Source: a virus. From it: DNA of 36,633 bases. The notes under the pieces were generated by a model that did not search any database, had not been told where the DNA came from, and saw only the letters and a program-made list of their open reading frames with translations. Positions 211-6,772 of the stretch are shown here, one piece after another (position 1 is the stretch's first letter; each line of letters begins with the position of its first letter). The stretch covers positions 1-36,633 of the IMG/VR virus record IMGVR_UViG_3300027733_000117. The stretch is one strand, 5' to 3'. Both the position numbers and the translations under genes were made by a program.

Positions 211-834
211 ATGGCAATTCAGAGAAATTTAAAAGCATTTGTTCGCTACGATGGTAGTGGAAGGGTTGTTGCAGGCAGCCTTATTCTGAGAAAGAACAAG
301 CCAAAAGTGGGAAGATGGCAAGAGATTCCAGCATATGAGTGCTGTAATTACGTTCCTACAAGTACGACAACAACTACTAGCACTACAGCTAGTCCAACAA
401 CTACTACCACAACTACAGCTAGTCCAACGACAACGACTACTTCTACTAGTACGTCTACTTCTACGACTACGTCAACTAGTACATCTACGTCTACCACTAC
501 AACTACTACGACAACAGAGGCGCCTACAACAACTACTACTACAACAGCACCACCAAGTTATTATTCATATGATGTATCAAATGTTTTTAATGGAAGTGGC
601 CCAGGTGATGCGTGTCTTGCAGAACAAACAATAGTATTATATGCAAATACTAATGATCCACTTGGTTCATTAGTTGGAAACTTTTTATATACAGATACTG
701 CTCTGACAACTAAATTTACAGGTAATCCACCAGGTGTTGGAGGATACTATAGATATGGTTTAACAGGAGATCCTATAACATACAGATCTGATTTTGCTAT
801 TGATGGAACTATCAATAATGTAACACAATGTTAA
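211..834 (+). CDS. Modular adhesin-like virion protein with Thr/Ser-rich linker
   Basis: This 207-residue protein has three parts. Residues 1-46 form a module (LKAFVRYDGSGRVV, then KPKVGRWQEIPAYECC) that recurs in the proteins at 918 and 4314. Residues 50-115 are an almost pure Thr/Ser linker with APTTT-type units. Residues 116-207 form a compact C-terminal domain with an LYTD motif and two cysteines, one next to the C-terminus. The architecture suggests a particle-anchored head carrying an exposed domain on a flexible stalk, possibly for host or surface binding; that role is inferred. There is no signal peptide or membrane segment. The ATG follows an A-rich leader four bases after the previous stop. 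An ORF in another frame over the linker is a shadow of the repeats. Confidence 0.8.
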   Translation: MAIQRNLKAFVRYDGSGRVVAGSLILRKNKPKVGRWQEIPAYECCNYVPTSTTTTTSTTASPTTTTTTTASPTTTTTSTSTSTSTTTSTSTSTSTTTTTTTTEAPTTTTTTTAPPSYYSYDVSNVFNGSGPGDACLAEQTIVLYANTNDPLGSLVGNFLYTDTALTTKFTGNPPGVGGYYRYGLTGDPITYRSDFAIDGTINNVTQC

Positions 835-3350: not shown

Positions 3351-3776
3351 ATGAATATTAAAGAATTTGATATGGGCAAGTACATCTTACTGATTGGTAA
3401 GGATGCTACTGACATATTTAATTACTATAAAGTTAAAGAAATGCATGGGCTAAATCTTAAAGATGCCCAAGCAGAAGAGGTTGATAAGACTAAGGGTAAT
3501 GGTGTATACATCTATGGATTGACAAACTACGATCCTGCAGATAAAAAGCTAGTAGCTAAAGCTCCTTATAAACCTTTTCTTTTTTTAAACATGGGCACAT
3601 TTAAAAGATATAGTGCTGATGAACAGAAGACAGCTATAATGCATGAAACAATGCATATGGCTCTTCTTCTTTATAAATGGGACGCTGAGAAAAAATCAGA
3701 AGAAATAGTAACAATGGCTGAAGATGAGGCTAATAAAATCATCAAAAAACTCAAAGGTATTAAAGTTATAAAATAA
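3351..3776 (+). CDS. Putative HExxH metallopeptidase-like protein
   Basis: The 141-residue protein contains HETMH at residues 98-102 inside a helix (EQKTAIMHETMHMALLLY), the classic HExxH zinc-binding signature, with Glu117/118 and Glu124/126 downstream as possible third ligands in the gluzincin arrangement. The preceding FLFLNMGTF strand fits the edge strand that holds substrate in minimal metallopeptidase domains. It is shorter than secreted proteases and has no signal peptide, so it would act in the cytoplasm or in the virion, for example in protein maturation; this is inferred. The TAA overlaps the next ATG (TAATG). Confidence 0.6.
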   Translation: MNIKEFDMGKYILLIGKDATDIFNYYKVKEMHGLNLKDAQAEEVDKTKGNGVYIYGLTNYDPADKKLVAKAPYKPFLFLNMGTFKRYSADEQKTAIMHETMHMALLLYKWDAEKKSEEIVTMAEDEANKIIKKLKGIKVIK

Positions 3777-4313: not shown

Positions 4314-5276
4314 ATGAGAAATAATTCTTTAAAACCATACGCTAGGTTTCTTAAAAATGGTGATGTAGTACCAGGAACTCTTGCATTATATAAAAGTGCC
4401 CCTACTGTTGGTATTTGGAAAGAAATGCAACCTATAGAGTATTTTAATAAAACTACTAAAAGTTATAGTGGAGTGATTAATGCTACATATCCAAATGCTT
4501 TATTAGCTAATAGCGTTGCTTATAGCTTAGTAAGTTTTCTTGATAGCTTAGGAGCTAATGCATATGATACTGTTTTAAATTCTACAACATGTTCAGATGA
4601 TGTTAACGCTTCTGAATTTGCTAACATATTTAACATAGGTCAAAATCCTCCAGCATTAAATAACTATCTTGGACCATTTATGGGTGGTGGACTTGCTGGA
4701 TATCCTCATACAGGTATACTAGGAGCACAAGCTTGGCAAAGTCACACTACATCAGATGATAATGCAAATGGACCATTATTATTAATTAACATGCCTCACA
4801 TAGGCATTACACAACAAGCTGACCTTATTGCAGCTAATGATAATGTAGGTAGAATGTTAAGAAGAGGTAAGAGTTCTGCTACAGCTGATAATACATGTGG
4901 AGCTGTTGCTACAGCTATTGCTGACGCAATTACATTAAATGGTGTTGCACCAGTAGCTACAAATGCTCCTTTCATAAATAATTATCAAAGATATCAACTT
5001 GCATTAATTGTTTATGCTTCTTATGCTTATTATAATACGCATACATATTCACAGAATATGATTCAAGCTACAGAACTTATAAGAGTTGCAAGTTATAATA
5101 TATTACATAATACAATTATTCCTGCATTAGGATCTGTAAACAATTTATATTTATTTAGTGGTACATTTATTAATGCTGATGATGGTTATTCTGCATTTAT
5201 TAATATTAATTCATTAGACGTGAGAACTGGATCAACTTGGACATCTCTTACAACAAGTTTTTTAAATAGTTTATAA
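4314..5276 (+). CDS. Virion-type N-terminal module fused to an LCIB/C-like (beta-carbonic-anhydrase-like) domain
   Basis: Residues 1-42 of 320 repeat the module seen in the proteins at 211 and 918 (LKPYARFLKNGDVVPGTLAL, then VGIWKEM). Residues ~58-270 resemble the LCIB/C beta-carbonic-anhydrase family: TTCSDDVN (Cys93, Asp95), GGGLAGYPHTG (124-134), QSH (142-144), INMPHIGI (His162), VGRMLRRGKSS, and NTCGAVATAI (Cys195). Cys93, His162 and Cys195 match the expected zinc ligands; the Arg that normally follows the first Cys by six residues is replaced by Ala99, so catalysis is uncertain. The ~45-residue tail is beta-rich. If active it would interconvert CO2 and bicarbonate; if not, the fold may be a binding domain. 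No signal peptide. Family assignment is from memory of the motifs. Confidence 0.65.
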   Translation: MRNNSLKPYARFLKNGDVVPGTLALYKSAPTVGIWKEMQPIEYFNKTTKSYSGVINATYPNALLANSVAYSLVSFLDSLGANAYDTVLNSTTCSDDVNASEFANIFNIGQNPPALNNYLGPFMGGGLAGYPHTGILGAQAWQSHTTSDDNANGPLLLINMPHIGITQQADLIAANDNVGRMLRRGKSSATADNTCGAVATAIADAITLNGVAPVATNAPFINNYQRYQLALIVYASYAYYNTHTYSQNMIQATELIRVASYNILHNTIIPALGSVNNLYLFSGTFINADDGYSAFININSLDVRTGSTWTSLTTSFLNSL

Positions 5277-5596
5277 TGGCAAAGATAACGCCTGTACCTA
5301 ATGGTCATCTTATTAAGAAGGATGGTACATCATTAAAGAATGGTGGTAAGGTTGTTAAAGCTGGTGGTCAAACACATAAAGTCTTTAAGAAAAAGGTTGA
5401 TAAAGGAATAGGTGATAAAGGAGACATAGTTGTAGATCATACAGCTGGTCCTTCTGCAGGCAAGTGGGATAAGATTAATCTTACAGAGAAATCTAGAGCT
5501 AAAACTGTTAAACAAGGTGTTGCTTCAGTTAAGAAGTGGCATAAAGATAATCCTGACTATGGCAAAAAGCGAAGCATGGCAAAGAAAGGAAGGTAA
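5276..5596 (+). CDS. Small basic Gly/Lys-rich protein, 106 residues
   Basis: It overlaps the previous gene by one base (TAATG). The protein is rich in Lys and Gly, with GHLIKKDGTSLKNGGKVVKA near the start and a SVKKWHKDNPDYGKKRS segment near the end. The middle (DIVVDHTAGPSAGKWDKINL) could form a small beta unit. The WHKDNPxY motif recurs in small phage proteins. The function is unknown; its neighbours are other basic mini-proteins. Confidence 0.65.
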   Translation: MAKITPVPNGHLIKKDGTSLKNGGKVVKAGGQTHKVFKKKVDKGIGDKGDIVVDHTAGPSAGKWDKINLTEKSRAKTVKQGVASVKKWHKDNPDYGKKRSMAKKGR

Positions 5597-5813
5597 GAAT
5601 CCTTCTGGTGGCCTAAATGCAAAAGGTAGGGCTTCCTACAACAGAGCTAACCCAGGTAAGCCTGGTCTTAAAGCTCCACAACCTGAAGGTGGTCCTCGCA
5701 AGAAATCATTCTGTGCTAGGATGTCAGGCATGAAAAAGAAATTAACAAGCTCTAAGACAGCAAATGATCCTAATTCTCGTATCAATAAATCTCTACGTAA
5801 GTGGAAATGCTAA
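5559..5813 (+). CDS. DUF6321-type small phage protein, 84 residues
   Basis: The frame begins MAKSEAWQRKEGKNPSGGLN and continues with NAKGRASYNRANPGKPGLK, KSFCARMSGMKKKLTSSK and NDPNSRINKSLRKWKC. This whole pattern is very strongly conserved in many unrelated phages and some bacteria; I recall it as DUF6321. No molecular function is established that I know of; its basic character suggests nucleic-acid contact. I chose ATG 5559 over the upstream start at 5517 because the family begins MAKSEAW. It overlaps the preceding gene by 38 bases. Confidence 0.85.
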   Translation: MAKSEAWQRKEGKNPSGGLNAKGRASYNRANPGKPGLKAPQPEGGPRKKSFCARMSGMKKKLTSSKTANDPNSRINKSLRKWKC

Positions 5814-5825
5814 ACTAATAATATT

Positions 5826-6359
5826 ATGGCAAAACAAATGATTAAACGTGCAGATGGTTCTACATCACAACGTGGTTTATGGGACAATATTCGTGCCAAA
5901 GCAGGAAGTGGAAAGAAGCCAACTTCAGCAATGCTAAAGCAAGAAAAGAAGATAAAAGCTAAAAAAGCTGAAAATGGTGATGAAGTAAAAACTGTAGATA
6001 GAGGTGAACTTGAAAATGTTACTGTTACAGCAAAAAGAACACCTACTAAAGCTAAGATGCCTTCAACTACACCATCTAAATCAATGGACTTATCAGATAA
6101 GATTAAATCTGTAGGAAGTTCTGATAACAAAAAGACTGGACGTTTTCAAGCATTTAAAAATGATATGAAGTCTAGCTTACGTGGTTTACCAAAAGCATTA
6201 CGTCCAATAGGCGCTACTGTAGCAGCTGGTGTAAATGCAATAGGTGGTCAAATGGGATTTAAGAAACGTACAGAAGCACAAAAACGTGCTGGCGATCTTA
6301 ATAGAGATAGTAAAAAAATGGGTGGTAAAATGATAATGAAAAAAACTAAAAAGAAATAA
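5826..6359 (+). CDS. Lysine-rich protein, 177 residues, function unknown
   Basis: The N-terminus (MIKRADGSTSQRGLWDNIRA, then GSGKKPTSAMLKQEKKIKA) is a conserved opening in phage proteins I have seen without function. A ~30-residue acidic-to-Thr/Pro-rich linker follows, with VTVTAKRTP (a TonB-box-like word, probably coincidental). The C-terminal part (LPKALRPIGATVAAGVNAIG) could form one amphipathic or weakly hydrophobic helix, and the tail is poly-Lys. Probably an internal or DNA-associated late protein; this is inferred from composition and position. Confidence 0.65.
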   Translation: MAKQMIKRADGSTSQRGLWDNIRAKAGSGKKPTSAMLKQEKKIKAKKAENGDEVKTVDRGELENVTVTAKRTPTKAKMPSTTPSKSMDLSDKIKSVGSSDNKKTGRFQAFKNDMKSSLRGLPKALRPIGATVAAGVNAIGGQMGFKKRTEAQKRAGDLNRDSKKMGGKMIMKKTKKK

Positions 6360-6361
6360 CA

Positions 6362-6772
6362 ATGAAAACAATGATGAAAAAAGCAGAAAAGGGTATGCAA
6401 ACCAAACCTAAAAAAGGAAAAATGATGTCTGAATCAGGAGATCTTGCTGATGCATTAAATGAAACTAAGCGTATGCGTGAAGCTGGTAAAGCTCCTAAAA
6501 CAGATAAAGATGCTGGTAAATTTATGGATAGACTTAATAAAGAAGGCAAACTTGGTCCTGCTAAACCTAAAATGAAAGTGGGGGGTCGTTTAAAAGATGT
6601 TCCAGCTGGTAATGCTGGTTTACCTAAACTTTCTACAGATGTAAGAAATAAAATGGGCTTCAAAAAGAATGGTGGAGCTATGAAAAAAGCAATGATGGGC
6701 TCATCAATGATGGCAGATCCTATGATGAAGAAAGGTGGCTCTATGAAGAAATGTAAATATGGCTGCAAGTAA
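6362..6772 (+). CDS. Met/Lys/Gly-rich protein, 136 residues
   Basis: A very methionine- and lysine-rich polypeptide with repeated M-K-K and K-x-G-G words, an acidic helical patch (SGDLADALNETKRMREAGK) and a Cys-containing end (MKKCKYGCK). It starts two bases after the previous stop. Composition resembles disordered virion-internal or scaffold-like phage proteins; the function is unknown. A long antisense frame over this gene has no independent support. Confidence 0.65.
   Translation: MKTMMKKAEKGMQTKPKKGKMMSESGDLADALNETKRMREAGKAPKTDKDAGKFMDRLNKEGKLGPAKPKMKVGGRLKDVPAGNAGLPKLSTDVRNKMGFKKNGGAMKKAMMGSSMMADPMMKKGGSMKKCKYGCK

Follow-up and report, generated by a model that had tools for sequence, protein, structure and literature searches.

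We found that an environmental virus fragment (the window, the whole 36,633-nucleotide stretch analysed here) encodes a member of a large phage protein family in which a complete LCIB-type beta-carbonic anhydrase domain sits behind interchangeable attachment modules resembling virion anchors, an arrangement that suggests display of a CO2/bicarbonate enzyme, or of a binder derived from one, on the phage particle. The enzyme family of the domain is known, but we found no description, in any source searched, of the domain's use behind phage virion anchors. We demonstrate the family, fold, invariant site, modular anchors and phage context of this protein, and infer zinc-dependent hydration or dehydration of CO2 by its domain. 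The open reading frame singled out by an initial annotation (positions 4314–5276, + strand, 320 aa in the ORF list) proved to be real, and its relatives in IMG/VR range from 98 to 30% identity. It joins a small, beta-rich N-terminal module (residues 1–42; 4314–4439, +), inferred from the structural model and from its recurrence to be a virion anchor, to an LCIB/C-type beta-carbonic anhydrase domain (residues ~48–317; 4455–5264, +) identified by Pfam, PDB profile and fold searches.

Pfam assigned residues 67–304 to LCIB_C_CA (PF18599; E = 3.2e-17, 63 bits against a cutoff of 25, profile positions 6–222 of 223), the only family found at E ≤ 10, with no match to the canonical beta-carbonic anhydrase family; PF18599 also matched all 80 members of an 80-sequence alignment (A6). 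The single sequence retrieved LCIB-family chains from the PDB (PtLCIB4, 6kfs; E = 4e-5), and the family profile reached LCIB crystal structures at E = 3e-35 over profile positions 52–313 and Chlamydomonas LCIB and LCIC at E of about 1e-10. AlphaFold prediction with 80 phage and bacterial relatives yielded a model with pLDDT 87 and pTM 0.82, containing a low-confidence loop at residues 99–109; this model was used instead of one made with only 21 sequences, in which residues 85–134, the active-site region, remained unresolved. Foldseek against the PDB placed seven LCIB/LCIC-family chains on top (PtLCIB4, E = 1e-13), the PtLCIB4 entries having TM scores of 0.78–0.81 normalised by the LCIB target and rmsd of 3.0–3.9, followed by canonical beta-carbonic anhydrases at E of about 1e-3 and a TM of only ~0.45 normalised by target. 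No fold match at E ≤ 0.001 was obtained among the modelled viral proteins of BFVD. The LCIB/C resemblance first recognised from motifs alone is thus borne out by PF18599 and the PDB profile, and the predicted structure has the LCIB fold and not the different one that would have refuted it. A chance motif match was likewise ruled out by the Pfam, PDB profile and fold-search scores.

The predicted active site comprises Cys93 (CSDD motif; codon 4590–4592), Asp95 (4596–4598), His144 (4743–4745), His162 (PHIG motif; 4797–4799), Arg183 (4860–4862) and Cys195 (CGA motif; 4896–4898), all on the + strand and each assigned on the basis of its invariance. Cys93 and Cys195 are the first and third predicted zinc ligands and His162 is another, Asp95 is the predicted active-site Asp, Arg183 lies in the active-site region, and His144 aligns with PtLCIB4 His88, the position mutated in PDB entry 5b5z; residue roles were assigned from reviews, from the titles of PDB mutant entries and from the alignment. 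All six are 100% invariant across a set of 137 distinct phage sequences, whose domains have a median pairwise identity of 43% (rough P = 2.5e-7 for all six falling among the 24 invariant columns), and the same six are invariant in 35/35 Bacteroidota proteins and present in PtLCIB4. The motifs listed in the initial annotation, TTCSDDVN (Cys93), GGGLAGYPHTG (124–134), INMPHIGI (His162) and NTCGAV (Cys195), are in place, and each residue of its proposed Cys/His/Cys zinc set has its counterpart in the alignment with PtLCIB4 and the 35 bacterial LCIBs, spatial distances not having been measured; His144 and Arg183 had been missed.

Around the site, position 94 is Ser, as in the aligned PtLCIB4, while at position 99 phages have Ala or Gly and bacteria mainly Asn, Ser, Gln or Ala. 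The suggestion that Ala99, in place of an expected Arg, hints at altered chemistry did not hold up, as most bacterial homologues also lack Arg there. The absence of Arg99 is no argument for inactivity, because bacterial LCIBs near bicarbonate transporters lack it too (Asn or Gln in 8/8), and loss of function from Ala99 was rejected as an argument on these grounds. The domain does carry a phage-specific NIGQ insert of ~8 residues (residues ~100–112; 4611–4649, +) between the first Cys and the GG loop: where measurable, the Cys-to-GG distance is 30–32 in phages versus 22–24 in bacteria, and the NIGQ motif occurs in 121/137 phage versus 1/35 bacterial sequences. PtLCIB4 and PtLCIB3 are reported to be constitutively active (PMC9614477); in Chlamydomonas, LCIB and LCIC also possess the site, but neither showed activity in vitro (PMC5876011). 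As far as alignments can tell, the invariance of the site favours retained chemistry without proving it.

The N-terminal module was modelled with strands at residues 7–12, 24–26 and 34–37, with pLDDT mostly 76–95. Its reported sharing with two adhesin-like neighbours was confirmed by a profile built from 54 phage LCIB proteins, which matched both at E of about 2e-14, and residues 3–45 recur at 930–1058 (tblastn, 42% identity, E = 5e-6). One neighbour (211–834, +; matched by the profile as 199–831, E = 2e-14) is fibre-like, its module being followed by a long linker rich in Thr and then by a C-terminal domain; the other (894–1322, +; matched by the profile as 873–1319, and also by Pfam and tblastn) combines the module with a weak PKD/Ig-like domain. 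This module kind, KPYxR..GxIVPGSL..GxW, heads Ig/PKD-like, Thr-rich or unknown domains elsewhere, occurs in one case as two tandem copies and has many different C-terminal partners in relatives. Across the family, phage LCIB domains carry at least 12 unrelated N-terminal module kinds, several of tail-fibre type, and the domain tree requires at least 12 anchor changes. Several of these modules also head other fibre-like proteins, and one kind, starting LTLRxTKGSALTxxEMDGNF, adjoins long repetitive tail-fibre proteins (L026). A few phage copies lack a module (e.g., L063:8016–8954).

Docking by short N-terminal segments has a precedent in crAss001, where such segments of gp21 and gp29 fasten the fibres in hexon pockets; most crassvirus groups lack head fibres of this type and may use uncharacterized proteins (PMC10172136). 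By analogy this precedent fits, but the docking site of the anchor remains undetermined, because the anchors are not detectably homologous to gp21 or gp29 (hhalign probability 0.4% and 0.1%). We found no convincing anchor relatives in isolate phages either. That the protein is carried on the virion is strongly inferred from the swapped modules, the presence of these modules on fibre-like proteins and the structural-gene setting; no proteomics data exist for any member.

The window is, on the gene order it shares with the 113.6-kb contig G001 and that contig's crassvirus genes, a fragment of an environmental Crassvirales phage. Matches to G001 were found for 32/51 window ORFs, largely colinear through the replication block and the LCIB region; G001 encodes a crassvirus terminase, portal and major capsid protein (PF23898), the last lying outside the window fragment, and an LCIB protein 93% identical to ours. 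Members of the Crass_capsid family occur in 20/40 LCIB-bearing contigs, the window included; among the others, L075 and L027 have genes for a tail sheath or head-tail adaptor. One viral scan of IMG/VR found at least 156 stretches encoding relatives, and none was found in 50,697 isolate phage records (INPHARED). The initial remark that no phage protein had been described with this domain withstood our searches of INPHARED, PHROGs, BFVD and the literature; viral carbonic anhydrases appeared in the literature searched only as giant-virus or virome auxiliary-gene mentions, none of them LCIB-type. Bacterial contamination or a prophage was rejected as the source: the phage-profile search found no relative in genome contigs, and the contigs hold capsid, portal and tail genes.

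The LCIB gene lies between a capsid gene and a virion-structural-family gene in several crassvirus contigs and near portal, major capsid protein and virion-structural genes in some crassviruses; myovirus-like contigs have it close to genes for a tail sheath and a head-tail adaptor. The copy in the window's relative comes after genes for tail fibres and lysis, and in the window's own group the LCIB gene is ~60 kb from the capsid gene, a distance that counts against display on the particle. Long contigs of 158–217 kb carry tandem copies (L059:7602–9665, L063:6907–8954, L065:7770–9808), two adjacent, diverged LCIB genes with different N-termini and an intact site, whose products possibly form a heteromer.

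Several further features of these loci were recorded. The structural run of the window also encodes a leucine-rich-repeat protein with a Thr-rich linker (1335–2345, +; PF12799, E = 8e-7); in this protein and in that at 211–834 (+), long Thr/Ser-rich repeats separate the LRR part or the anchor from the C-terminal domain, as is typical of a stalk or linker, and their length varies among relatives. A Dps/ferritin-like protein (2354–2773, +; DUF5856, phrog_858) is a neighbour conserved in 39 LCIB loci; crAss001 also has a DpsA-like gene, and a ferritin-like protein in a structural block is curious. The small protein at 3351–3776 (+) contains an HExxH-like motif (AIMHETMHMALLL) and is possibly a metallopeptidase, with only a weak HNH endonuclease match in PHROGs and no Pfam match. 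Directly after the LCIB gene, 5276–6772 (+) encodes a run of small, very Lys/Gly/Met-rich basic proteins, possibly packaged DNA-binding proteins; related proteins recur across many loci (clusters 7, 40 and 8). One contig group (L092, L093, L099) has the LCIB gene amid glycosyltransferase-like genes (GlcNAc and HtrL_YibB families), with a family-B DNA polymerase also nearby. Conserved proteins of ~320–340 aa downstream of the crassvirus major capsid protein (cluster 199; L105:15469–16434, L039:6500–7510) have no useful Pfam match and are possible auxiliary capsid proteins. No RNA families or tRNAs were found in the window.

Next, we considered the phylogenetic origin of the domain. A 59-sequence tree groups the phage domains in a single clade (support 100/100) with a long stem of 1.83 changes per column; when the tree is rooted on the three solved LCIB-family sequences that it labels as algal, this clade nests among Bacteroidota LCIBs, with only moderate support for the deeper branches. 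PF18599 was present in 35/395 sampled Bacteroidota species genomes, as standalone proteins of ~230–260 aa without an anchor. An SbtA-like and P-II-like gene pair lies within ~5 kb of 8/35 of these loci (L271, L272, L275, L280, L282, L286, L291 and L294; Pfam confirmed for two), an association with a binomial P of about 1e-13, or 2e-4 if just three loci are independent. These LCIB, SbtA and P-II loci of Bacteroidota are, as a separate observation, a candidate inorganic-carbon module with an LCIB-type enzyme. In 2/35 loci the LCIB gene directly adjoins a bestrophin gene, and both bestrophin-linked LCIBs fall in the bacterial clade nearest the phages, a weakly supported join (88/60); in Chlamydomonas, channels of the bestrophin type are believed to work together with LCIB (PMC9614477). 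The SbtA/P-II and bestrophin neighbours indicate, through gene context, that the bacterial family acts on CO2/bicarbonate.

Taken together, we read the protein as a virion-attached decoration or fibre protein whose LCIB-type beta-carbonic anhydrase domain derives from a host and is probably still catalytic, an interpretation held with slightly better than even confidence in the absence of proteomics or activity data. The domain would go back to a single capture from a Bacteroidota-like LCIB gene, followed by spread among phages through anchor swapping, while the ~42-residue module would dock the protein on the particle, at the capsid or a fibre base. Zinc would be held by Cys93, His162 and Cys195, with Asp95, His144 and Arg183 completing a site that would catalyse, beside the host surface, the conversion between CO2 and bicarbonate plus a proton. 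Any benefit is speculative; the enzyme might control pH or bicarbonate locally while the phage adsorbs or ejects its genome, or when particles are released and afterwards. The chemistry of the phage domain could have shifted, given the long stem and the phage-specific insert next to the site. The broader proposition is that active carbonic anhydrases are displayed on the virions of many phages, infecting Bacteroidota as well as other hosts, and serve at the cell surface in the course of infection; in our judgement it could go either way.

The main rival to a virion enzyme is a virion adhesin, in which the LCIB fold binds a receptor or glycan and the zinc pocket is structural or binds carboxylates without turnover. 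Receptor-binding surfaces are usually the fastest to diversify, and a pure binder need not keep six site residues across 137 diverged phage sequences and the bacterial ones. Swapping of the domain behind fibre anchors, beside adhesin-like domains, is typical of receptor-binding tips, and the insert and long stem would also suit this explanation, which we regard as rather unlikely. The adhesin reading has a precedent in vaccinia D8, a carbonic-anhydrase fold that binds chondroitin sulfate (PMC4256255). The intact site is also compatible with an unpackaged, intracellular auxiliary metabolic enzyme helping the infected cell to handle CO2/bicarbonate, for carboxylases or pH, and the bacterial relatives are indeed standalone, some of them beside bicarbonate transporters. 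A soluble enzyme, however, needs neither an N-terminal module, which nearly all phage copies possess (some clearly of tail-fibre type) and which is common to fibre-like proteins, nor a gene in a structural block, and we consider this role improbable. Least credible to us is a different chemistry on the LCIB fold, such as that of a zinc hydrolase, directed at the host surface or capsule at entry. Many fibre tips are depolymerases and the phage-only insert lies beside the active-site loop, but none of the six conserved positions has changed, and to our knowledge no activity other than that of a carbonic anhydrase is known for LCIB/C proteins.

Known virion enzymes mostly cut polymers such as capsule and peptidoglycan. 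If the virion-enzyme reading is true, a small-molecule CO2/bicarbonate enzyme on the particles of crAss-like phages and of several unrelated kinds of phage would be a new virion function, tying phage entry or release to host pH and inorganic-carbon chemistry. It would also give a role to unassigned crassvirus fibre genes, most groups having no known head fibres (PMC10172136), and would make phages a large reservoir of LCIB, a family that the reviews consulted describe from algae, diatoms and hornworts.

Among known systems, the LCIB/LCIC beta-carbonic anhydrases (PF18599; PtLCIB4 5b5y and 6kfs, CrLCIB 5k5w, CrLCIC 5b5x) resemble the phage domain in fold, in the Cys-His-Cys positions and in the active-site Asp, His and Arg, with ~17–19% structural-alignment identity for PtLCIB4; unlike them, the phage protein has an N-terminal anchor, the ~8-residue NIGQ insert, no Arg99 and a gene in a phage structural block. 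The Bacteroidota LCIB-like proteins, its nearest relatives in the tree, share the same six residues and are standalone, without insert or anchor. Canonical beta-carbonic anhydrases (E. coli YadF/Can, pea CA) show a distant fold likeness and also a Cys-His-Cys zinc site. The fold of vaccinia D8 belongs to the unrelated alpha-CA class and is not known to be active. D8 likewise places a carbonic-anhydrase fold on a virion, that of an animal virus, where it binds chondroitin sulfate (PMC4256255), whereas the phage domain has an LCIB-type beta fold with its site intact. Similar in architecture are gp21 and gp29 of crAss001, also from Crassvirales and also pairing a short N-terminal anchor, in their case a capsid anchor, with a swappable outer domain, which in their case is phi29 gp8.5-like or Ig-like and not a carbonic anhydrase (PMC10172136).
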